Assembly: GCF_001243045.1 (NCBI RefSeq)
Contig: NZ_LN849007.1
Span: 1,268,989-1,332,988 of the forward strand
Direction: 5' to 3'
DNA: 64,000 nt
Source: Clostridium niameyense
GTDB lineage: Bacteria; Bacillota; Clostridia; Clostridiales; Clostridiaceae
Of this stretch, positions 28,824 through 59,153 are shown piece after piece. A model generated the notes under the pieces. The model made no database searches and had not been told where the DNA came from. It was given only the letters and a program-made list of their open reading frames with translations. Position numbers and translations under genes: made by a program. The first letter of the stretch is position 1; every line of letters starts with the position of its first letter.

Positions 28824-29564
28824 ATGACAGAAATTTTTTATAGTATGGATCATATTCTTTTGTTAAACGGATACAATGATCCCAAGAAGCATAGACATTG
28901 GTCAAAACATTTATTAATTAGTTTAGATGGAGAAATTCAATGCTTTATTAAAAATCAAAAGATATGTTGTACAGGTATTATGATTTCTTCTAATGTATAT
29001 CACACCATTGATAGTAACCAAAAACAAGTTCTAGTATATCTATTTGATGAAACTACAGATATATCTAAAGAAATGGATTTGAAATACTTAAACAACTCTC
29101 CTTATTATATAATAACTAAAGACACTGTGGAGAAAATTAAAACTATTTGGAATGAAAAGAATACATATCATTATACCTATAAAAGCATACTAAAATCTTG
29201 TAATTTACAATCAAAAACTCCTCATATTAAGGATGATAGAATAAAAGAAGTAATAAAATTACTTAAAAATAAAAAGGAAATCACAAAAGAAATTATAAAT
29301 GATTTATCAGAAAGTGTATACTTATCTCCAAGTAGACTTTCACACTTGTTTAAGGAAGAAACTAAAATATCATTAAATAGCTATTTAGTAATTATGAAGG
29401 TATCCAAGACTTATGAGTATATATTAAAGGGAGATAATATTACAGATGCCTGCTTAAAAGCTGGTTTTTATAGCGCTTCTCATTTCGCTACCACTAATAA
29501 AAATATGTTTGGTCTTTGTGCAAAATCTTTTCAAAAAGATATAAAATTCATAGAAGTATGTTAA
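28824..29564 (+). CDS. AraC family transcriptional regulator
   Basis: 246 residues: an N-terminal cupin-like sensor region (about 1-130, HRHWSKHLLISLDGEIQCF) and a C-terminal double helix-turn-helix (about 145-240; VYLSPSRLSHLFKEETKISL and ACLKAGFYSASHFATTNKNMFG). AraC proteins bind promoter DNA and respond to a small ligand. It lies directly before, and in the same direction as, an FmdE-like gene and a nickel/peptide-type importer, making it the likely regulator of that set. The ligand could be a metal chelate or peptide; this is inference. Confidence 0.85.
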   Translation: MTEIFYSMDHILLLNGYNDPKKHRHWSKHLLISLDGEIQCFIKNQKICCTGIMISSNVYHTIDSNQKQVLVYLFDETTDISKEMDLKYLNNSPYYIITKDTVEKIKTIWNEKNTYHYTYKSILKSCNLQSKTPHIKDDRIKEVIKLLKNKKEITKEIINDLSESVYLSPSRLSHLFKEETKISLNSYLVIMKVSKTYEYILKGDNITDACLKAGFYSASHFATTNKNMFGLCAKSFQKDIKFIEVC

Positions 29565-29773
29565 AATAACAATCCCATAGATTAGTAAATTTAAAAAGTT
29601 TTGTGACAAAATGAGAAAATCTCAAAAAGAGAAAGCATTTTTGTATTATTATGAGAATAAAAAATATTTTCAGCATATGCCTATTATTATTGATAATTAT
29701 CTACCCCATGGCATAGTATTTGCTTTATATTTAACTATAGTATCTTTCATTATATTTTTAGGAGGTATAACTT

Positions 29774-30298
29774 ATGAAAAAAGACTTATGGGAAAAATGC
29801 GTAAAATTTCATGGACATTCTTGCCCAGGGCTTGCTATAGGGTATAAAGCCGTAGAAGCAGCAATAAATAAAATGGGTATAAAATTTTCAGAAGATGAAG
29901 ATATCGTATGCGTTACTGAGAACGATGCCTGTGGAGTAGATGCTATTCAAGTTTTATTAGGATGTTCTTTAGGAAAGGGAAATATTATTCATAAAGATTC
30001 TGGTAAAATGGTCTTTGCTTTTTTTAACAGAAAAAATGAAGAAAGTTTAAGGATAGTATTTGAACCTAAAGAAAAAAAGCAAGACAGAACTGAATATATG
30101 AATTACATATTAAACACAGATTATACTGAGCTTTTTAAATTTAAAAAGCCTAATTACTCTGTACCTGAAAAAGCAAGATTATTTAAAAATATAACTTGTG
30201 AAATCTGTAAAGAAAGTACCGCCGAACATAGAATAAGAATTATGAATGGTAAAATGGTATGTTCTGATTGTTTTAAAGAATATTCGAGAATCATTTAA
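29774..30298 (+). CDS. FmdE-like protein (formylmethanofuran dehydrogenase subunit E family)
   Basis: 174 residues. The N-terminal FmdE domain opens with CVKFHGHSCPGLAIGYKA, carrying the conserved H-G-H-x-C-P-G metal-binding motif, then ENDACGVDAIQVLLGCSLGKGN. A C-terminal zinc knuckle follows: CEICKES and CSDCF (about 143-170). FmdE proteins occur outside methanogens next to metal transporters and molybdo- or tungsto-enzymes; a metal-handling role is inferred. RBS TAGGAGG is 7 bases ahead. It starts the run leading into the ABC importer 36 bases downstream. Confidence 0.82.
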   Translation: MKKDLWEKCVKFHGHSCPGLAIGYKAVEAAINKMGIKFSEDEDIVCVTENDACGVDAIQVLLGCSLGKGNIIHKDSGKMVFAFFNRKNEESLRIVFEPKEKKQDRTEYMNYILNTDYTELFKFKKPNYSVPEKARLFKNITCEICKESTAEHRIRIMNGKMVCSDCFKEYSRII

Positions 30299-30334
30299 AA
30301 AACTATAAATACAAAATAACTAGGGGGATTTTTA

Positions 30335-31933
30335 ATGAAAAAAACTATACATAAATTGATAGTAGTACTTTTTACTACTATAATAAGCATGTCATTTTTA
30401 CTATGTGGTTGTGGAAATAATAAAAAAGAAGTAGAAACCAATGTAAAAAAAGAGTCTGCTCCTAAAAAAGATGTTGTTTTAAAATTAGAAGGAGGAGATT
30501 GGGGATCACCTAACCCATATCTTTCATATCCAAGGGGACCAGGATCTTCTAAAGTAAACCTAATTTATGATTCACTAATAGAAAGAGACGAAAAAGGAAT
30601 GATACCTTGGCTTGCAGAAAAATGGGAAGTAAAAAATGGTGGTAAAGAGTACTTATTTAAAATAAGAAAAGGAGTCAAATGGCAGGATGGAAAAGAATTC
30701 ACTCCAGAGGATGTAAAATTCTCTTTTGAATATTTTAAAAAGCATCCTCCTGTATCTAAAAGTCTATATATAAATGGAAAATGTTTTATAGATAATGTTG
30801 AGGTTTTGAATGATAATTACATTAAAGTTACAGTAAATACTATAAACGCTTCTTCTTTAGATAAACTAGGAAATACTAGAATTATACCAAAACATATTTG
30901 GGAAAAAGTAAATGATCCTAAAAAATTTAATGAAAAAGATGCTTTTGTAGGTTGTGGACCTTATACTTTAGAATCTTATAATAAAGAAAGAGGGGCTTAT
31001 AAGTTTACAGCTTTTAAAGATTATTGGGGACCTAAGCAAAGAGTTAAATCTATAGAATTCATTCCAGTAAGTGACCCTATACTTGCTTTTGAAAAAGGTG
31101 ATTTAGATCTTATTGAAGGCGTTAAACCAGATATAGCTAAAAAATATGAAAATAATAAGGATTATAAACAACTAAAAGGACATAACTTCTTTGGTTATAG
31201 ACTATGTATGAATATGGATAAAAAGCCAGAGTTTAAAGACAAAAATATAAGACAAGCCATAGCTTATTCTATAGACCAGCAGGAAATAATTGATAAAGTA
31301 AAAAGAGGATTAGGGGTAAAAGCTAGTGCATCTTTCTTGCCAAAAGATCACGTATGGTATAACAAAAATGTTAAAAAATATGATTATAACCCTAGTAAAT
31401 CTAAGGAACTTTTAAAAGATAAAAACTTAAGCTTTGAACTTACTACATCTAATCGTAAGGATGACTTAAGAATGGCAGAACTTATAAAACTTCAGTTAGA
31501 AAAGGCTGGAATAAAGGTTAATGTTAAAAGCCTAGACATGAAAAGTAGAGATGCTGCTGCTAAAACAGGAAATTATGAAGCTCTTATAACTTCTCATGGT
31601 GGTTGGGGGCAAGATGCGGATATATTAAGAGAGCTATATAGATCTAAAGATTTAGCAGTAGGTGGAACTATTATGAACTCCATACCAGGATATAAAAATC
31701 AAGAAATAGATAAATTATGTGATAAACAGATGAACGAAATGAATGAAGCCAAGAGAAAAAAACTAGTATATGAGCTTCAAGAAAAAATATCAGATGAAAT
31801 ACCTATGATTCCTATTATAAATACTCCTGGTGGTATTGCTATATATAAACCAGCTAAATATGATGGATATATGAATATGTATAACCATTTTATGTTATCA
31901 CATAGTAAACTAAGCTATTTAGAAAGAAAATAA
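30335..31933 (+). CDS. nickel/peptide-type ABC importer, substrate-binding lipoprotein
   Basis: 532 residues. A lipoprotein signal ends SFLLCGC, with Cys27 as probable lipid anchor, then a full SBP_bac_5 domain of the DppA/OppA/NikA group (YDSLIERDEKGMIPWLAEKWEV, FKIRKGVKWQDGKEFTPEDV, RQAIAYSIDQQEI). It captures ligand outside the membrane for the two permeases downstream. Family members carry peptides, nickel-chelates or other metallophores. Adjacent FmdE-like gene favours a metal or metal-chelate, but peptide uptake remains possible. RBS AGGGGG precedes the ATG. First gene of a four-gene importer set spaced 3-12 bases apart. Confidence 0.88.
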   Translation: MKKTIHKLIVVLFTTIISMSFLLCGCGNNKKEVETNVKKESAPKKDVVLKLEGGDWGSPNPYLSYPRGPGSSKVNLIYDSLIERDEKGMIPWLAEKWEVKNGGKEYLFKIRKGVKWQDGKEFTPEDVKFSFEYFKKHPPVSKSLYINGKCFIDNVEVLNDNYIKVTVNTINASSLDKLGNTRIIPKHIWEKVNDPKKFNEKDAFVGCGPYTLESYNKERGAYKFTAFKDYWGPKQRVKSIEFIPVSDPILAFEKGDLDLIEGVKPDIAKKYENNKDYKQLKGHNFFGYRLCMNMDKKPEFKDKNIRQAIAYSIDQQEIIDKVKRGLGVKASASFLPKDHVWYNKNVKKYDYNPSKSKELLKDKNLSFELTTSNRKDDLRMAELIKLQLEKAGIKVNVKSLDMKSRDAAAKTGNYEALITSHGGWGQDADILRELYRSKDLAVGGTIMNSIPGYKNQEIDKLCDKQMNEMNEAKRKKLVYELQEKISDEIPMIPIINTPGGIAIYKPAKYDGYMNMYNHFMLSHSKLSYLERK

Positions 31934-31944
31934 AAGGGTAGTTG

Positions 31945-32928
31945 ATGATATTTATGAAAATTAAATTTTCTAAGTTTACTGAATATGCATTGACTATAAT
32001 AATTATACTCACAATAAATTTCTTTATCCCTAGGCTTATGCCTGGGGACCCTTTTGTAATACTCTCTGGAGATAATGGGTGTGAGATTTCTGCATATTCA
32101 CAGGAACAAATAGAAAAATATAAAACCTATTATGGTTTAGATAAACCTATACATATTCAATATTTAAATTACATAAAAAATTTGTGCTATGGTAATTTAG
32201 GATATAGTATTTATTATAATGATTCTGTTTTCAATATTATAAAGTCTAGATTTGGTTGGACTCTCATGTTAGTTTTAACATCTATTTTTTTTAGTTCTAT
32301 TTTAGGAACCTTAATCGGAACTTTATCTTCCTTCAATAAAGATAAAAAATTAGACCGAATACTCTATAGTTTTTTTATGACCTTATCTGAAATACCTGGG
32401 TTTTTATTGGGTATAATTTTTTTATTTATTTTAGCAGGAAAATTAAACTTATTCCCTTTATCTGGAGCTATAACAGATTTTCAAGAATATGCATCTAACT
32501 ATGAAAAAGCAAAGGATATAATTTATCATGCTACTTTACCAATTTTAACATTAACATTATCAAAAGTTGGAGACTTTTATTTAATATCAAGAAATAGTGC
32601 TATTTCGGTTTTGAAAAAAGATTATATAAATACAGCTAAAGCAAAAGGTCTAAAGAGAAGAAAAATTATATTTAAACATATACTTAGAAACTCTATCCTT
32701 CCTGTAATAACTAAAATCTTTTTAACTATAGGTTCTGTAGTGAGTGGAGCTATTTTAGTAGAAAATGTTTTTTGCTATCCAGGTCTTGGAAAGCTTATGA
32801 AAGAAGCTGTATTTGTAAGAGATTATCCATTGATTCAAGGTATATTTTTGGTAGTTACATTTATGGTTATAGTTATGAATTTAATATCAGATAAACTATA
32901 TAAAAAATTAGATCCAAGGGTGGGATAA
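31945..32928 (+). CDS. ABC importer permease 1 (DppB/NikB type)
   Basis: 327 residues, six membrane segments, BPD_transp_1 fold. Typical DppB N-terminus (FFIPRLMPGDPFVIL) and EAA-like cytoplasmic loop AKAKGLKRRKIIFKHILRNSILP that contacts the ATPase. ATG 31945 is chosen; a TTG one codon earlier and an ATG three codons later are also in frame. It pairs with permease 2 to form the membrane channel of the importer. Confidence 0.87.
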   Translation: MIFMKIKFSKFTEYALTIIIILTINFFIPRLMPGDPFVILSGDNGCEISAYSQEQIEKYKTYYGLDKPIHIQYLNYIKNLCYGNLGYSIYYNDSVFNIIKSRFGWTLMLVLTSIFFSSILGTLIGTLSSFNKDKKLDRILYSFFMTLSEIPGFLLGIIFLFILAGKLNLFPLSGAITDFQEYASNYEKAKDIIYHATLPILTLTLSKVGDFYLISRNSAISVLKKDYINTAKAKGLKRRKIIFKHILRNSILPVITKIFLTIGSVVSGAILVENVFCYPGLGKLMKEAVFVRDYPLIQGIFLVVTFMVIVMNLISDKLYKKLDPRVG

Positions 32929-32931
32929 CCT

Positions 32932-33753
32932 ATGAAAAAACATTTAATTAAAATTAAAAACTTATCTAGCATAAGTAAAATTTCTTTTATAATTATAATA
33001 TTTTTTACATTTATGGCTTTATTTTGTCCTATAATATGTAAGTTTCCATATAGTAAACCTTCAGGTGTATCTTTCAATCCACCCTGTAGTAAACATATTT
33101 TAGGTACAGATGATCTTGGTATAGATTTATGGTCTCAAATCTGCTATGGTTCTAGAATTAGTATAACTGTAGGGTTATTTACAGCACTTTTATCTGGACT
33201 TTTAGGAAGTTTTATAGGTATAGTTTGTGGTTATTATGGAGGTACTATTGATAAAATTTTAATGAGATTTACAGATTTAATGATGGTACTACCAGAACTT
33301 CCTGTAATGATAGTTCTTGCTGCTTTCTTTGGACCTAGTATAAAAAATGTAATAATTGTTTTAAGTTTATTTTCCTGGGTATCTCCTTCTAAAATAATAA
33401 GATCAAAAGTTATATCTATAAAAAACGAAAATTATATAAAAGTTGCTCAAAGTTTTGGAGGTAACTTTACTCATATATTAAGTAAACATATACTACCCAA
33501 AATAATTCCTTTAATAAGCATAAGTATGATAAAAATTATAAGTAAATCCATAATAGCAGAATCTTCTTTATCCTTTTTAGGACTCGGAGATCCTTTATCT
33601 AAAAGTTGGGGTATGATTTTAAATCACGCTATTAATTTTGAAGGAATTTACTTTACAGATTATTGGAAATGGTGGATCTTATCTCCCTTAACTTGTATTT
33701 TAACCTTAGTTTTAGCTTTTGCATTCATAAGTAAAGAATTGGAAAATATTTAG
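32932..33753 (+). CDS. ABC importer permease 2 (DppC/NikC type)
   Basis: 273 residues. DppC-type features: HILGTDDLGIDLWSQICYGSRIS just after the first membrane segment and the EAA loop VAQSFGGNFTHILSKHILPKIIPL. The gene starts 3 bases after the stop of permease 1 with only a weak RBS, so translational coupling is likely. Membrane half-channel of the importer. Confidence 0.87.
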   Translation: MKKHLIKIKNLSSISKISFIIIIFFTFMALFCPIICKFPYSKPSGVSFNPPCSKHILGTDDLGIDLWSQICYGSRISITVGLFTALLSGLLGSFIGIVCGYYGGTIDKILMRFTDLMMVLPELPVMIVLAAFFGPSIKNVIIVLSLFSWVSPSKIIRSKVISIKNENYIKVAQSFGGNFTHILSKHILPKIIPLISISMIKIISKSIIAESSLSFLGLGDPLSKSWGMILNHAINFEGIYFTDYWKWWILSPLTCILTLVLAFAFISKELENI

Positions 33754-33764
33754 GAGGAATTTTT

Positions 33765-35447
33765 ATGGAGTATTTACTTAAAGTAAATAATTTATCTATT
33801 TGCTATGAAAAAAATCAATCTTTTAAAGCTGTAGACAATGTATCTTTTTCTATAGTGGAAGGAGAAAATGTAGGAATAATCGGAGAATCTGGCAGTGGAA
33901 AAACTTCTATTGCTACAGCTATAATGGGACTTTTAAATGAAGAAACTAAGGTTTCTGGAGAAATCCTCTATAAAAATCAAAATATATTATCTTTCAAAGA
34001 AGATGAAAAAAATATGTATAGGTGGTCTCATATAGCCTTAGTTTTTCAAAATAATCTAGATGTATTAAATCCTGTACTTAATATAGAGAGTCAAATATTA
34101 GAAAGCATTATAAAACATACAAATTTATCTAAAAAAAAAGCTTTAATAAAAGTAGGTAATTTATTAGAAATGGTAGGTTTAAATAAAACTATTGCAAAGG
34201 TTTATCCCCATAATTTATCTGGTGGTATGAGACAAAAAGTTCTTATAGCTATGGCTCTAGCTTGTGATCCTAAAATATTGATAGTAGATGAACCTACTTC
34301 AGCTTTAGATAGTGTAAGTAAAAATGAAATAATAAATCTTCTTTTAAAATTACAAAAAGAAAAAAAAATAACTATGTTAGTAATCTCTCACGATTTATAT
34401 GTAATTAATAAATTAACTTGTAAATTAGAAGTTATATATAAAGGTAATATACTAGAGGAAGGTCTTACAAAAGATTTAATAAGACATCCTATGCATACAT
34501 ATACAAGAGGCATTATAAATTCCTCTATAGAAATAAATCCTTTTGGAGATTTATGGGGAATACCTTATAAAGAAGATAACTTAGATGGTGGTTGTGTATT
34601 TTATTCAAGATGCATACAAAAATGTAGAAAATGCAAATATACAAAACCTCAATTATACAACATATTAAATAATAGAAAAGTTGCTTGTAATAGAGGCGGA
34701 ATTGTAAATTTATTACAGGGGAAATCCATAAACAAAACTTATAAGGATAATAATAGGGAAGTATGTGCTGTAAAAAACTGTAATATAACTATAAGATTCG
34801 GAGAGATAGTATCTCTTATAGGAGAATCTGGTTCTGGTAAAACTACTTTAGCTAATATACTATCAGGAATATTAAATCCTGACAGTGGAACTGCTTATTT
34901 CAAAGATGAAAAAATACAAGGTAATAACCTTACTTCTAAAAAAGAAGGTATACAAATTATTTTTCAAGATCCATTTTCATCCATAAATAATTCCTTTACT
35001 ATATTAGAAACCATAAGAGAACCTTTAGATATAATTAAAGCTGGTTCAAAGGAAGATAGGTATAAAAAGGTATTAGAAGTACTGAAAAAAGTACAACTTC
35101 CTACAGAATCTAGTTTTTTAAATAAACGATGTAGTGATTTAAGTGGGGGACAAAGACAAAGAATATCTATAGCTAGGGGACTTATTATGGAACCTAAACT
35201 TTTAATAGCAGATGAGATAAGTTCTATGCTAGATCCATCTACTAAAGCAAATATTTTAAGACTTTTAAAACAACTGCAAAACTCTACTGGCTTTGCTATG
35301 CTATATATTACTCACGATATTAACTTAGCTAAAAAAATTTCGGATAAAATGCTAGTTATGCATAAGGGAGAAATTATAGAATCTGGTTCTGTTTTAGACA
35401 TATTTAATAACCCAGAAAAACCTTATACTAAAATGCTAATATCATAG
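33765..35447 (+). CDS. ABC importer fused double ATPase (DppD-DppF / NikD-NikE fusion)
   Basis: 560 residues carrying two complete ABC ATPases in one chain. NBD1: GESGSGKTS, LSGGMRQKV, LIVDEPTSALD; after it a Cys cluster (CVFYSRCIQKCRKCKY, about 285-300) typical of the oligopeptide/nickel subfamily, which can hold an Fe-S cluster. NBD2: GESGSGKTTL, LSGGQRQRI, LIADEISSMLD; the Walker B end reads DEISSMLD rather than DEPTSALD. It powers the importer formed with the preceding three genes. Fusion of the two ATPases also occurs in GsiA-type systems. Followed by a terminator. Confidence 0.88.
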   Translation: MEYLLKVNNLSICYEKNQSFKAVDNVSFSIVEGENVGIIGESGSGKTSIATAIMGLLNEETKVSGEILYKNQNILSFKEDEKNMYRWSHIALVFQNNLDVLNPVLNIESQILESIIKHTNLSKKKALIKVGNLLEMVGLNKTIAKVYPHNLSGGMRQKVLIAMALACDPKILIVDEPTSALDSVSKNEIINLLLKLQKEKKITMLVISHDLYVINKLTCKLEVIYKGNILEEGLTKDLIRHPMHTYTRGIINSSIEINPFGDLWGIPYKEDNLDGGCVFYSRCIQKCRKCKYTKPQLYNILNNRKVACNRGGIVNLLQGKSINKTYKDNNREVCAVKNCNITIRFGEIVSLIGESGSGKTTLANILSGILNPDSGTAYFKDEKIQGNNLTSKKEGIQIIFQDPFSSINNSFTILETIREPLDIIKAGSKEDRYKKVLEVLKKVQLPTESSFLNKRCSDLSGGQRQRISIARGLIMEPKLLIADEISSMLDPSTKANILRLLKQLQNSTGFAMLYITHDINLAKKISDKMLVMHKGEIIESGSVLDIFNNPEKPYTKMLIS

Positions 35448-36703: not shown

Positions 36704-36784
36704 TAATGAAATTATATGTAAACCGAAGAACTTTTAAAAACAAATAAAATCTATAATTATTTATCAAAATGATACTAAAAACTT

Positions 36785-36840
36785 AAAATCTCAAAATGAT
36801 AACTTTAATTTATAGCATTTTGAGATTTTCATTATTTTTT
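36785..36840 (+). terminator. inverted repeat, terminator of the protease gene or enhancer
   Basis: AAAATCTCAAAATG (36785-36798) pairs perfectly with CATTTTGAGATTTT (36816-36829), followed by CATTATTTTTT. It ends the protease transcript in the simplest reading, but it also lies 35-80 bases upstream of a sigma-54 promoter, within the range for enhancer sites. TCAAAATGATA is repeated at 36764 and 36791. Confidence 0.55.
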
Positions 36841-36863
36841 AACCAATATTCAACTTTTAAATA

Positions 36864-36880
36864 TTGGCACGATAATTGCT
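36864..36880 (+). promoter_or_regulatory. sigma-54 (-24/-12) promoter
   Basis: TTGGCACG (36864-36871), four bases, then TTGCT (36876-36880) is a perfect match to the sigma-54 consensus YTGGCACG-N4-TTGCW. The -12 base at 36879 places +1 at G36891. Confidence 0.8.
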
Positions 36881-36890
36881 TTATAATATA

Positions 36891-37018
36891 GTGGGGTTAA
36901 AAAAGTTTATTATTTTGGTAATTTCCTCCTTATATTTACTCATGATAATACACCGCAATATATTTTCATGTATATAAGGAATGCTTAATTCTTAAAAGAG
37001 CTTTATGCTCTTTTTTCT
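36891..37018 (+). ncRNA. putative sigma-54-dependent small RNA
   Basis: The sigma-54 start site at 36891 is followed after about 100 bases by an intrinsic terminator (36993-37018), with no credible ORF between: the only ATG frame gives 11 codons and has no RBS. The RNA would be about 128 nt. It holds CCTCC (36925-36929), complementary to Shine-Dalgarno sites, half embedded in a 9-bp stem TCCTTATAT (36927-36935) with ATATAAGGA (36972-36980). That architecture suits a base-pairing regulator. Activator, targets and Hfq dependence are unknown. Confidence 0.55.
36993..37018 (+). terminator. terminator of the putative small RNA
   Basis: AAAGAGC / GCTCTTT stem with 5-base loop, then TTTTTT. Confidence 0.85.
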
Positions 37019-37165
37019 TTTATAAATTTAAAACAATAACAATAAAATCCTACATTACCTCTAGTTTCATATAATAATAAAACTACTTTTGCATAAACTT
37101 ATAATACAAAACTTAATAAAACACAAATACAAAAGATAAATTTTATTAATTAGGAGGTAATAATT

Positions 37166-37366
37166 ATGTCAAACAGAAATTCTAATAAATTAGTAGTACC
37201 AGAAGCTCAGAAGGGATTAGATCAATTAAAAATGGAGACAGCAAATGAAATAGGATTAACTAACTATGATTCTATGGATAAAGGAAACTTAACTTCAAGA
37301 GAAAATGGTTATGTAGGTGGAAACATGGTTAAAAAAATGGTTGAAGCTTACGAAAGAAATCTTTAA
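37166..37366 (+). CDS. alpha/beta-type small acid-soluble spore protein (SASP)
   Basis: 66 residues, the standard length. It carries the family blocks KMETANEIG, containing the GPR protease cleavage site, and GNLTSRENGYVGGNMVKKMVEAYE. These proteins coat spore DNA, protecting it from UV and heat, and are degraded at germination. Expression would be in the forespore under sigma-G; I cannot point to a clean sigma-G promoter in the 120 bases upstream. RBS TAGGAGG precedes the ATG. It shows that the organism sporulates. Confidence 0.95.
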   Translation: MSNRNSNKLVVPEAQKGLDQLKMETANEIGLTNYDSMDKGNLTSRENGYVGGNMVKKMVEAYERNL

Positions 37367-37491: not shown

Positions 37492-37821
37492 TTAACTACA
37501 ACTAGAACATGTAGAGCAACTTATATTTTCAGGTTTTATAACTGGTTCTATAGTAAATCCATCTCTACCATTTTCTTTACTACACATTAATGTAAATCCA
37601 CCATATTCTCTGCAAAGATCCCTATCTATTAAAAATACTAAATCATTAACAGGAATCACTAAATCATTTTCTGTTTGTTCATCCAGAACAATATTAAATG
37701 TAGGGCCAGATCATCCATTACCTGCTAAATATATTCTCAATACATTAGAAGGGATTTTATTTACTTCTAAAAATTCTTTAAATTCATTGTAAGCTAATTC
37801 ACTTATAGTTAAAGGTACCAT
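37492..37821 (-). CDS. HesB/IscA-like selenoprotein (in-frame UGA = Sec37)
   Basis: 109 residues when the TGA at 37711-37713 is read as selenocysteine: start MVPLTISELAYNEF, then LRIYLAGNG-Sec-SGPTFNIVLDEQ, and an end rich in cysteine (SCSTCSSCS). HesB-like proteins normally have a GCxGP-type motif here, so Sec sits at a conserved Cys place; HesB-like selenoproteins are a known bacterial family. The frame runs on cleanly for 72 codons after the TGA, and a hairpin with a UGGAU loop lies 20-36 bases downstream. RBS GGAG precedes the ATG. Presumed role: Fe-S cluster or metal handling, unproven. Ordinary gene calling misses it. Confidence 0.85.
37675..37691 (-). promoter_or_regulatory. SECIS-like hairpin of the HesB-like selenoprotein
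   Basis: On the mRNA, TTGTTC and GAACAA form a 6-bp stem around TGGAT; the loop starts 26 bases after the UGA and has G in its second position, as bacterial SECIS elements require. Confidence 0.65.
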
Positions 37822-38685: not shown

Positions 38686-39678
38686 ATGAAATATAATTTC
38701 GAAGAAATTAGAAGTGTTAATAATTATTTGCCCCCATGTTTAATAGATTTTATAAATTATTTAGAAACCATCAAAGGAAAATCCCCTAATACTATTAAGG
38801 GTTATAAAACAGATTTAATTATGTTTTTTAGATTTTTAAAAATATATAAAGGACTTCAAAAACAAGAATTGGAATTTGAAAACATACCTATAAATGATAT
38901 TAATAATGATTTTTTAAGAGAATTACAATTATCTGATTTATATGCCTTTTTATCTTTCACTGAAAAGTATAGAAATAACAGTAGTTATGCTAGAGCTAGA
39001 AAAGTAGCTACTTTAAAATCCTTCTTTAAATATTTAAATAGAAAAGTTAAAATCGTAGAAGAAAATATAGCTGATGATCTAGAGTCTCCTAAAATAGAAA
39101 AAAGAAATCCTGTTTACTTAACTTTAGAAGAAAGCAAGAAATTATTAAATGCTATAACAGGAATGAACAAGGAAAGAGATTATTGTATTATAACTTTATT
39201 TTTAAATTGTGGTTTAAGACTGTCAGAATTATGTAGCATAAAGATATCAAAAATTAAAGGTGATACTCTAACAGTAATAGGAAAAGGTAACAAAGAAAGA
39301 ACTGTTTACTTAAACAAAGCCTGCATAAATGCAATCTATAACTATTTAAGAATAAGAAATAAAACTCTAGATAAAGTACCTACAGAAGATAAAGATATAT
39401 TATTTTTAAGCAAAAATAATAGAAGAATCAGTAAAAGAACTGTAGAAGTAATGGTAAAAAAGAATATTTCTAAAGCAGGATTAGACCCAAATAAATATTC
39501 CCCACATAAGTTAAGGCACACTGCTGCCACATTAATGTATAAACATGGTAGTGTAGATATAAGAAGCCTTCAAATGATATTAGGCCATGAGAATGTATCT
39601 ACAACACAAATTTATACTCATGTAGATAATGAAAAATTAAGAAACGCAGTACAATCTAATCCATTAAGCCAAGAATAA
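38686..39678 (+). CDS. tyrosine recombinase, XerC/XerD-like
   Basis: 330 residues: an N-terminal SAM-like core-binding domain (about 15-125, YLETIKGKSPNTIKGYKTDL) and a C-terminal catalytic domain with all active-site residues: Arg in CGLRLSEL, Lys in IGKGNKERT, HKLRH, GHENVSTTQIY with the nucleophile Tyr. Length fits chromosomal Xer proteins better than phage integrases. It probably acts on chromosome dimers or a mobile element; no att or dif site is recognisable nearby. It stands alone with its own promoter and a shared terminator with the formate dehydrogenase cluster. Confidence 0.87.
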   Translation: MKYNFEEIRSVNNYLPPCLIDFINYLETIKGKSPNTIKGYKTDLIMFFRFLKIYKGLQKQELEFENIPINDINNDFLRELQLSDLYAFLSFTEKYRNNSSYARARKVATLKSFFKYLNRKVKIVEENIADDLESPKIEKRNPVYLTLEESKKLLNAITGMNKERDYCIITLFLNCGLRLSELCSIKISKIKGDTLTVIGKGNKERTVYLNKACINAIYNYLRIRNKTLDKVPTEDKDILFLSKNNRRISKRTVEVMVKKNISKAGLDPNKYSPHKLRHTAATLMYKHGSVDIRSLQMILGHENVSTTQIYTHVDNEKLRNAVQSNPLSQE

Positions 39679-40770: not shown

Positions 40771-42912
40771 TTACTGCGCTTTTACTGCACCCATCAAATC
40801 CCTAATTTCTTCATATTTGCTACGAACATATTCATGTGCTTTTTGTTGATCATCAATTTTTTCTATATTAACTGCACAGTACTTATATTCAGGAGTTTTA
40901 GAAATAGGATCTAAATTACAAGCTGTAAGTTCATTACATGCACCTATCCACCATTGATAAGTCATATATACAGCACCTACATTTATTCTTTCAGATACCC
41001 TTGCTTTAGCGATAACAGAACCTCTTCTAGAAGTTATTTTCATAAACTCTTCATCCTTTATTCCATATTCTTCTGCATCTTTTGGATTAATTTGAACATA
41101 ACCAGGTTCATCTGCTAACTTTTTAAGTGTCCTACAATTTCCTGTCATAGTTCTTACTGAATAATGACCAACTTCTCTTACAGTAGATAAAATTATAGGA
41201 TACTTTTCATCTGTAGCTTCCATAGGTGCTCTCCAATCACAAGCAAACAATCTGCCTTTTTTATTTGGAGTACTAAACTCACTATCTTTATAAAGATAAG
41301 AAGTTCCTTCATGATCTTCTGTAGGACATGGCCATTGAAGAGATCCTACCTTTTCTAATCTTTCATAACTTATACCTTCAAAATCTGGGCATAGCTTTCT
41401 TATTTCATCCCAGATTTCTTCTGTACTATTATAATTCATTGGATATCCCATAGCATTAGATATTTCACATATAATCTTCCAATCATCCTTACAATCCCCT
41501 ATAGGATCTATTGCTTTTCTAAATATTTGCACTCCTCGATCTGCACAAGTAAAAGTTCCTCCATGCTCACCCCAAGACGTAGCTGGAAGAATTACATCTG
41601 CATGAAGTGCAGTTTTGTTCATAAAAATATCTTGAACTATAACTAAATCTAATTTATCCAGGGTTTGCCTTATTTCTTCTGAATCCGGATCACTTTGAAC
41701 TGGATCTTCACCTATTATATAATAAGCCTTTATCTTGTTCTCTTCTAAAGCTAATTTAGGAACTTCTGTTAAATGAACACCTATTTTAGATGAAAGTTTA
41801 GTTCCCCAAGCTTTTTCAAATTTTTCTCTTATATTATCATCAGTAACACTTTGATAATCTGGATATACATTAGGTAAGGCACCCATATCACAGGCACCTT
41901 GAACATTATTTTGTCCCCTAACAGGTCCTATTCCTACATTAGGTCTACCAAAATTTCCTGTTAAAAGTGCTAAGGATGCTAATCCTTTAACTACATCAAC
42001 AGCTTGTCCATAATGACAGACTCCCATACCATAAAGTATCATAGCATTAGGTGCCGCAGCATAAATTTCCATTGCTTTTTTTATATCTTCACCATTGATT
42101 CCTGTCATTTTTTCCGCATACTCTATGGTATACTTTTCAACATTCCTTTTATATTCTTCAAAGCCTTCAGTATGTTTATTCACATAATCTTTATTATATA
42201 AACCCTTCTTTATAAGATAATTTCCAAAAGCATTTACTAAGATCATATTAGTACCATTTTTTATAGGTAACCATAAATCTGCTGTTCTGGCAGATTCAAT
42301 TATACGAGGATCTACTACTATTACTTTTGCTCCTCTTTCTTTTGCTTTAATTATTCTTCTAGCAACTATGGGGTGAGAATCTCCACCATTATATCCAAAT
42401 ATCAATATTACGTCTGTATCCTGTATTTCATGAATACCATTAGACATAGCCCCATTACCTAATACGTTGGCTAAACCAGCCACAGATGGTGCATGTCAAA
42501 CTCTAGCACAATGATCTACGTTATTTGTTCCAATAGCTGCTCTCATAAATTTTTGCATAATATAATTGGCCTCATTACCTGAACCTCTAGCACATCCTGT
42601 TCCCATTATGGAATCGGGACCATATTTTTCTTTTATTTCTTTCAATTTTGAAGCTGTAAAATTAATAGCTTCATTCCAAGAAACCTCTTCTAATTTACCA
42701 TTTTTTCTAATCATAGGACTTTTTATGCGAGCTGTTAGTATTTGAGGATCATTCAAAAAATCCCATCCATAATATCCTTTCAAACACAAATTGCCCTCAT
42801 TAGTTCTACCTTCTGCAGGTTCTGATCTAACTATCTTTCCATCCTTCACAACTAAATAAAAATTACAACCTGCTCCACAATAAGGACAGATTGTAAGTAT
42901 TCTTTTTTCCAT
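40771..42912 (-). CDS. fdhF: selenocysteine formate dehydrogenase catalytic subunit (FdhF/FdhA type, Sec139)
   Basis: 713 residues as one gene across the in-frame TGA at 42496-42498. The N-terminus has the [4Fe-4S] ligands CPYCGAGC and CLKGYYGW; then HCARV-Sec-HAPSVAGL, the textbook formate dehydrogenase Sec site where Mo or W binds. Bis-MGD-binding blocks follow (FGYNGGDSHPIVARR, GPVRGQNNVQGACDMG) and the C-terminal molybdopterin domain (REVGHYSVRTMTGNCRTL). It interconverts formate and CO2. A SECIS-like hairpin follows the UGA. Upstream of two polyferredoxins; sequence suggests a cytoplasmic enzyme without a signal peptide. Read naively it appears as two genes. Confidence 0.96.
42469..42481 (-). 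promoter_or_regulatory. SECIS-like hairpin of fdhF
   Basis: GGCT and AGCC enclose GGTTT; the loop starts 19 bases after the UGA and begins GG, comparable with the GGUCU loop of the E. coli fdhF SECIS. Confidence 0.75.
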
Positions 42913-58556: not shown

Positions 58557-59153
58557 CACCTACTTTATTAATACTTCTGTATTGTTAGTATGCTTAAATC
58601 TTTCAAGGCATTCTCAAACTCCTTTAATGTTTATCTCTAAAAATCATCTTCAGCAATAAATTGATTCATTAGAATATACTCACTCAACCATAAAAAAATC
58701 CATAGAAATATTATTAAATATCTCCCAGGCTTTTATCCTTCCATGTACACAGTCAACTGTGTGTTTTCTCTTGTACCTGCCAGTTATAAACTGCGGAACC
58801 CTAGAAAACTTAAATACATAATTAAATTATAATTTACAAGTTTACAATTGCAAAATGCTTTTAACATAATATTATGATTAAATCAACTATATATGTTTCT
58901 AGTAAAATTATCCATTTATTAATTAAAATTTGCTTTCTATTAAATTGTTTGATAGTTTACTTTTAAATTTAATTTACATAATTATATTTAAGTAACTTTA
59001 TTTATTTTATTACATTTTTCATTTACGCTTTCATTTTTATCTATTTAATATCTATCATATTTCATAGAATTTATAAAATCACAAAATAAGATAACTCTAA
59101 ACCTATTACTACCATATGTATATAAATATAATATCCTAAACTTATTTGGTATG
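58557..59153. other. intergenic region with a higher-GC island
   Basis: About 600 bases without an intact gene. At 58740-58810 the base composition rises: ACACAG-TCAA-CTGTGT is a 6-bp hairpin, followed by GCCAGTTATAAACTGCGG, which can also fold. Broken coding-like pieces on the minus strand (AVYNWQVQEK) suggest a decayed gene instead. The rest is featureless AT. Confidence 0.4.

Follow-up and report, generated by a model that had tools for sequence, protein, structure and literature searches.

We report here a predicted small RNA (sRNA) gene at positions 36864-37018 of the 64,000-nucleotide stretch of Clostridium niameyense DNA analyzed in this work (hereafter, the window), where a perfect sigma-54 promoter stands behind an array of activator sites and before a short RNA with its own terminator. 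In our assessment, this stand-alone gene probably encodes a fast-evolving, sigma-54- and activator-driven sRNA of a metal-acquisition regulon. The core of this prediction, sigma-54 transcription of a terminated RNA from a promoter with activator sites ahead of it, had been proposed from the window alone and is now well supported by comparison with 27 RNA genes in 13 other genomes. Judged by sequence, the locus combines promoter, activator array, terminator and a lack of coding evidence in the same layout that is found in these 13 genomes.

Promoter, activator sites and predicted transcript

The -24/-12 element on the plus strand at 36864-36880 (TTGGCACGATAATTGCT, reading TTGGCACG-ATAA-TTGCT) had been called perfect in the first-pass annotation, and a pattern scan agrees: it is the only match without mismatch to TTGGCACGN4TTGCT on either strand of the window, and the pattern arose in 0 of 200 dinucleotide shuffles of the window. 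Since the same pattern is present in 113 of 206 Clostridiaceae genomes, versus 1 of 206 when read backwards, an occurrence without mismatch usually marks a genuine promoter. Counting from the C of TTGC at -12 (position 36879) gives a predicted +1 at 36891, the start proposed earlier, and the element thereby lies at the right distance from the RNA start, as in sRNAs of the Qrr and CrcZ kind.

The direct and inverted repeats previously noted upstream of the box correspond to predicted activator sites at -100, -73 and -51. The motif TCAAAATGATA is present at 36764 and 36791, and an inverted third copy with one mismatch is found at 36813. We built a half-site matrix from 64 half-sites of 24 relatives' sRNA promoters (seed TCAAAATGATA, up to 2 mismatches), leaving out the window and giving the positions of the half-sites no part in the training; because the seed was seen in both the window and genome G096, the motif is not fully independent. 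In the whole 64 kb the three highest-ranking matches are, in this order, half-site 2 (TCTCAAAATGATA, 36789-36801, plus strand, core at -73 from the box), half-site 1 (TATCAAAATGATA, 36762-36774, plus strand, core at -100) and half-site 3 (TCTCAAAATGCTA on the minus strand, 36811-36825, core at -51), while rank 4 overlaps half-site 1. This layout fits the arrangement in the relatives, where half-sites concentrate around -103, -75 and -51 relative to the box (-100/-73/-52 in G125). Within 170 bp of 111 perfect sigma-54 sites of relatives, one exact half-site occurred in 4 cases and two in none, versus two in the window, and two half-sites within 60 bp were seen in 0 of 200 shuffles. We therefore read the upstream repeat as a conserved activator array. 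Its inverted repeat (36786-36832), which encloses half-sites 2 and 3, may serve twice, because it is also readable as a terminator (13-bp stem, -11.6 kcal/mol as RNA, then a T-rich run), and it likely doubles as the A/T-rich terminator of the upstream gene; it could also be a terminator and nothing more.

Paired half-sites of the form TCAAAAYGATA N2-30 TATCRTTTTGA were found in 29 of the 206 genomes (reversed control, 1 of 206), and at 32 of 44 such loci a sigma-54-like box follows within 400 bp on one of the strands. Half-sites of the same type also occur at the sigma-54 promoters of loci L211-L223, L231, L236, L239 and L254, where the genes, in other clostridia, are by eye purine-catabolism-like (YgeW/YgeY-like, xanthine dehydrogenase-like) or alcohol dehydrogenase-like. 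Because similar half-sites serve these other sigma-54 genes, a similar DNA motif seems to be common to several PAS-type activators, and the array alone cannot identify the activator.

The predicted RNA (36891-37018, plus strand) is about 128 nt long and ends ahead of the next gene at an intrinsic terminator, recognized from sequence and fold at 36994-37018, in which an 8-bp hairpin (36994-37014) is followed by a T run reaching 37018. The segment 36891-37020 has a minimum free energy (MFE) of -25.8 kcal/mol (z = -2.78), and none of 200 shuffles was equally stable. Its long hairpin (36927-36980, plus strand) contains, in both the MFE and the centroid structure, the outer 9-bp stem 36927-36935/36972-36980 that had been described before, but the CCTCC said to be half hidden there is nearly all paired: the CCUCCU anti-Shine-Dalgarno sequence at 36925-36930 has unpaired probabilities of 0.04-0.33. 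Because it is mostly paired, the translation mechanism favored by the earlier reader is weakened for this RNA. The longest open reading frame (ORF) within the RNA is a leaderless one of 28 aa that uses GTG at +1 (36891-36977); an ORF of this length or longer was reached by 160 of 2000 shuffles, so coding is unsupported, and the earlier description of a terminated transcript lacking an ORF holds. An Rfam scan gave no match at gathering score at the sRNA locus. When the RNA was compared with 35 start regions in a target search, mutS, lexA and hfq came among the first four, all via AGGAGG-type pairing, an outcome that is uninformative about the targets. The Hfq gene is indeed encoded in the window, as reported previously, on the minus strand from 46167 (recognized by eye), and the window RNA may control translation and may depend on Hfq.

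Elsewhere in the window, a Guanidine-I riboswitch (58720-58815, minus strand) is the only Rfam match at gathering score. A HesB-like small protein gene (37492-37821, minus strand; family by eye) has one in-frame TGA (AGNGUSGP) and likely encodes a selenoprotein. The formate dehydrogenase gene at 40771-42912 on the minus strand, given as two pieces in the ORF list, also has one in-frame TGA (CARVUHAPSVAGLA), likely a selenocysteine codon.

Related RNA genes and their probable activator in other Clostridiaceae

The base rate of such genes was estimated from at least 110 relatives' loci with perfect boxes, which provided 109 analyzable sites, with 2 further sites too short. An ORF of at least 90 aa starts within 200 nt of the box at 105 of the 109 sites, and within 400 nt at 3 more. 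A terminator precedes such an ORF at one site, locus L140 of genome G096, and a terminated orphan behind a perfect box is thus rare (1/109). The L140 RNA is about 80 nt long, with the terminator loop AGCCCTCCT, and TTTCAAAATGATAAATATTATCGTTTTGAAA, the motif of the window's direct repeat, occurs downstream of it, ahead of a second sigma-54 gene. A search for a box followed by N42-72 and CCTCCT yielded a paralogue of L140 in G096; 15 other places with this pattern (14 genomes) are outside the family count. L011 (G067) and L020 (G069) were rejected as orphan RNAs, being long leaders followed by ORFs; these sigma-54 leaders of about 300-570 nt have long predicted hairpins and stand before PTS-type and glycosidase-like genes (by eye).

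By reading the half-site loci and using a model from five RNAs, we assembled a family of 27 short terminated RNAs in 13 genomes, comprising 18 of type A (two in G094, one in G095, four in G096, two each in G097 and G098, one in G099, three in G100 and one each in G129, G130 and G132) and 9 of type B (G094, G095, G097, G125, G128, G129, G130, G131 and G132). Box, activator array and terminator come in the same order: a sigma-54 box, in some cases with one departure from consensus, is recognizable for 24 of the 27 RNAs (not for type B of G094, G095 and G130), and two or more half-sites accompany 19 of these 24 promoters across the 13 genomes. One promoter has a single site at -51, and clear half-sites are absent from the type-A promoters of G129, G130 and G132 and from one of G097. 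Type A RNAs start with ATATAGTTTGAAATAAATTT, contain a C-rich run (for instance CCCUAAACCCUAAA) and have the terminator loop sequence CAGCCCUCCUG; across the 18 sequences, two-sided changes affect 6 of the 17 stem pairs, 4 sequences break one pair, and several pairs are invariant. The covariance model R2 gave scores of at least 52 bits in 10 of the 206 genomes, and its matches of 35-45 bits in other genomes were kept outside the family count. The type B RNAs of G125 and G128, low in R2 (28.7 bits; no right-strand match), were recognized by box, half-sites, the start GAATATA and terminator. Type B of G128 is without the C-rich run, which indicates that the family RNAs change fast. An Rfam scan of the relatives' RNAs matched no sRNA family, the miRNA names returned being long-hairpin matches below cut-off.

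The loop CCCUC is fully unpaired in all four relatives' RNAs computed. The relatives' RNAs thus expose an anti-Shine-Dalgarno sequence in the terminator loop, whereas that of the window RNA is mostly base-paired: where the family has a C-rich run and an exposed terminator loop, the window RNA has one CCUCCU, paired and outside the terminator.

Several candidates were dropped from the family. L267 of G143, a CCCUCC-loop hairpin scoring 46.9 bits, is without a sigma-54 box; this strong terminator-like hairpin (1501-1581, loop CCCTCC) represents an anti-Shine-Dalgarno loop outside the sigma-54 family. Also removed were L268 (G141), L305 (G175), L296:9413 (G096), L193:10782 and L251:1674 (G100), and all antisense matches of the palindromic terminator. 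The minus strand of L225 (G094) has, near 495, the sRNA promoter and RNA start (TTGGCATAAGAATTGCT...) a second time, followed by sequence unlike the sRNA; this copy is perhaps a duplicated promoter.

A sigma-54 activator gene is divergent to 8 of the 9 type-B RNAs (the exception is G097), and a gene of this kind lies at L290:9543-10955. Two activator proteins that were scanned contain PAS, Sigma54_activat and Fis HTH domains. The N-terminal 155 residues are matched at 62-100% identity in 13 of the 206 genomes, the next best match having 49%, and these genomes (G094-G100, G125 and G128-G132) are the same 13 that carry the RNAs. All 10 genomes with strong R2 scores are among them (hypergeometric probability 9e-15, uncorrected for kinship). 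The activator gene of G125, G128 and G131, by which these genomes were picked, is accompanied in each by a terminated RNA with box and half-sites. The 64-kb window contains no activator gene, and the activator would presumably be encoded elsewhere in the same genome.

The conservation of 36891-37018 next to the gene for a small acid-soluble protein (SASP), envisaged in the first-pass annotation, was not borne out in either respect. With BLASTN and covariance models, no recognized sequence homologue of the window RNA was found in the 206 Clostridiaceae genomes, close kin being outside this comparison. At E <= 1e-4, BLASTN of 36840-37025 matched 16 places in 15 of the 206 genomes, 11 of them covering the promoter region only, 3 the terminator and 2 inner parts (L018, L024); 10 of the 11 promoter-only places listed were rejected as RNA homologues, being sigma-54 promoters of other genes, and an Rfam scan of the BLASTN loci, L018 and L024 included, gave no sRNA family match. 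A model from the window RNA alone matched 5 of 206 genomes at E <= 0.1, and these five loci were discarded, as 0 of 5 have a sigma-54 box by pattern. The combination of a box, N26-56 and CCTCCTTA occurred in 1 of 206 genomes, in a coding-like place by eye. Plasmids and viral contigs gave no match to the window RNA, and the models R2 and R3 did not match it, scoring 16.5 and 12.9 bits over the RNA in terminator-like parts only. As to gene order, the best matches to the Xer-type recombinase at 38686 are 74-76% identical, and the SASP gene, the protease-like neighbor and the FmdE gene were present at 0 of 20 Xer loci in the retrieved flanks; L073, the sole sigma-54-like match among these loci, was rejected as coding by eye. 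The membrane-protease-like neighbor gene (by eye; no Pfam match) has counterparts of at most 50% identity in five relatives, in a scan that finds close relatives only. On these sequence criteria, the window RNA is assigned to the family by its promoter and layout, with an RNA sequence unlike those of the other members.

Metal-type neighbors and competing explanations

Two sites alone in the window match TGGCAYRN4TTGCW: the 36864 box and a second sigma-54 box (TGGCATAGTATTTGCT, 29708-29724, plus strand), 66 bases before the start codon of an FmdE gene. The operon that follows (29774-35447, plus strand) encodes FmdE, SBP_bac_5, two permeases and an OppDF-like double ATPase (Pfam; permeases by eye) and is a probable co-regulated uptake system. 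Upstream of it lie weaker activator-like half-sites at 29620-29656 (matrix ranks 7 and 8 of the window) and the rank 5 match at 29529. Genome G175 shares the operon (57% identity of the binding protein), with no sigma-54 box in 19.5 kb and no activator match among the 57 genomes listed; G174, also without the activator, shares it on a contig that begins inside the operon, the promoter region lying outside.

FmdE, part of the window RNA's presumed partner operon, is also found beside the relatives' sRNA of L296. According to Pfam, genes next to the relatives' RNAs encode CbiM with PDGLE, an FmdE carrying a zinc-finger tail, CobW and a component of an ECF transporter; a methyltransferase gene is present as well, and inspection by eye adds metal P-type ATPases, Opp proteins, and ferredoxin-like and His-rich proteins. 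A GGDEF protein, metabolic genes and further transporters among the neighbors do not fit this picture. In G129, the type-B RNA and the activator adjoin the gene for an iron-hydrogenase large subunit, and in G096 the strand opposite to a type-A RNA carries a cobalamin riboswitch, about 530 bases upstream of the RNA start. Because of these neighbors, a transition-metal (Ni/Co) regulon is suggested, of which the sRNA family would be part.

An activator site and, 101-103 bp from it, a sigma-54 box were also observed pointing antisense into the 3' end of the CODH gene of a Wood-Ljungdahl-type cluster in G098 (L308, 7617-10509), G129 (L306, 5369-8339) and G100 (L252); in G098 and G129 the site lies between the CODH gene and CooC- and formate-THF-ligase-like genes (by eye). 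An antisense RNA at this 3' end is possible.

We infer that the window gene is transcribed, and propose its signal, targets and mode of action as follows. An enhancer-binding protein of the PAS - AAA+ - Fis type, with its gene in another part of the genome, would bind the half-sites at -100/-73/-51 and, once bound, would open sigma-54 polymerase at 36864-36880, giving an RNA of about 128 nt that stops at the terminator. The FmdE/Opp uptake operon would probably be switched on by the same activator, so that a single signal, most likely a shortage of a transition metal such as Ni or Co, would trigger the sRNA and the uptake genes at once. The sRNA would then act on mRNAs, probably via C-rich/anti-Shine-Dalgarno pairing after refolding or with the help of a partner.

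It is rather unlikely that this sigma-54 sRNA answers instead to another PAS-type activator and signal, for example purine- or acetoin/butanediol-linked, and unrelated to metals. The half-site type shared with the YgeW/YgeY-, xanthine dehydrogenase- and alcohol dehydrogenase-like genes (by eye) would suit this explanation, as would the weakness of the half-sites at the window's FmdE operon, whereas the -100/-73/-51 spacing matches the relatives' sRNA promoters, and FmdE/Opp genes recur beside the relatives' sRNAs.

The SASP gene at 37166 starts 148 bases past the terminator on the same strand, and the RNA might accordingly be this gene's sigma-54 leader, ending in a regulated terminator (attenuator), in which case read-through and not the short RNA matters. 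We regard this as quite unlikely: alpha/beta SASP genes are normally under sporulation sigma factors, and the relatives' terminated RNAs precede many different genes, or are convergent or divergent to them, and, with neighbors differing in identity and orientation, share no common downstream gene.

We think it very unlikely that the promoter is decaying or accidental and makes no functional RNA, a reading that agrees with the failure to find a sequence homologue in the 206 Clostridiaceae genomes, plasmids and viral contigs but sits poorly with a perfect box of a pattern so strongly enriched over its reversed control (113 versus 1 of 206 genomes), with an intact terminator and with two exact half-sites in register. 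It is highly improbable that the RNA serves as mRNA of a tiny hydrophobic peptide, of 28 aa from the GTG at +1, as a ribosome-binding site is impossible at +1 and the one open frame is of a length matched in the shuffles.

Relation to known regulatory systems

To our knowledge, the sigma-54-driven sRNAs described so far are all from Proteobacteria. Among the matches listed in a search of titles and abstract beginnings in the open-access literature, none concerned a clostridial or Firmicutes sigma-54 sRNA; the available text of PMC7439476, PMC7724050 and PMC12069270 has nothing on such RNAs, and a term search of the available part of PMC3879012 gave no matches. According to the portion of PMC9768041 at hand, 25 sRNAs have been reported in C. 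ljungdahlii (Tan et al. 2013), and some family RNAs may be among them.

The available sections of Nie et al. 2019 (PMC6615313) describe a clostridial activator, YpdR, with the targets metM-memP-pepABC and fmdE-metM-hemABC, labeled as peptide degradation. These targets match the gene content of the relatives and of the window, whose FmdE/Opp-type operon with its sigma-54 box (29708-35447) is of the kind expected of the YpdR regulon, and this regulon and that of the RNA-associated activator are probably the same. The difference is that the YpdR regulon, in those sections, is one of peptide degradation with coding genes only: sites were searched for in the regions that precede coding genes, and the terms "small RNA" and "sRNA" occur 0 times. 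Regulon maps drawn from coding genes alone can miss RNA targets.

An sRNA family with an adjacent activator gene is a testable circuit, through which carbon fixation and hydrogen metabolism may be linked to the supply of metals. As a tentative extension, clostridia, acetogen-like ones above all, may possess a sigma-54 metal-sparing response in which a PAS-type activator would turn on Ni/Co-type uptake (CbiM, Opp, FmdE, methyltransferase, perhaps a metallophore) and, along with it, as many as four C-rich, fast-evolving sRNAs silencing the translation of metal-costly enzymes, as well as an antisense start under sigma-54 at the 3' end of a CODH gene. If so, this response would correspond to RyhB, but for nickel and cobalt and with a promoter logic like that of Qrr, and the window RNA would represent it in a lineage not yet sampled.

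CrcZ and CrcY of Pseudomonas are sRNAs under CbrB and sigma-54 and, like the clostridial type B, are encoded near their own activator gene, but CrcZ sequesters Hfq/Crc with A-rich motifs, whereas the clostridial RNAs have C-rich motifs and anti-Shine-Dalgarno loops. RsaE/RoxS and FsrA are C-rich Gram-positive sRNAs that pair with Shine-Dalgarno sequences; the relatives' RNAs resemble them in exposing C-rich segments complementary to ribosome-binding sites, and differ in being sigma-54 driven, while in the window RNA the segment is paired. The Qrr sRNAs of Vibrionaceae are controlled by sigma-54 with LuxO/SypG, and Qrr1 has two activators (PMC10162802, available text). They share with the clostridial RNAs a sigma-54 promoter, upstream activator sites, a short non-coding RNA and, in some species, several copies per genome, but belong to another phylum and differ in activator, signal and sequence, serving quorum sensing where the clostridial RNAs probably serve metal supply. 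Qrr1 is the nearest studied parallel among the systems compared.
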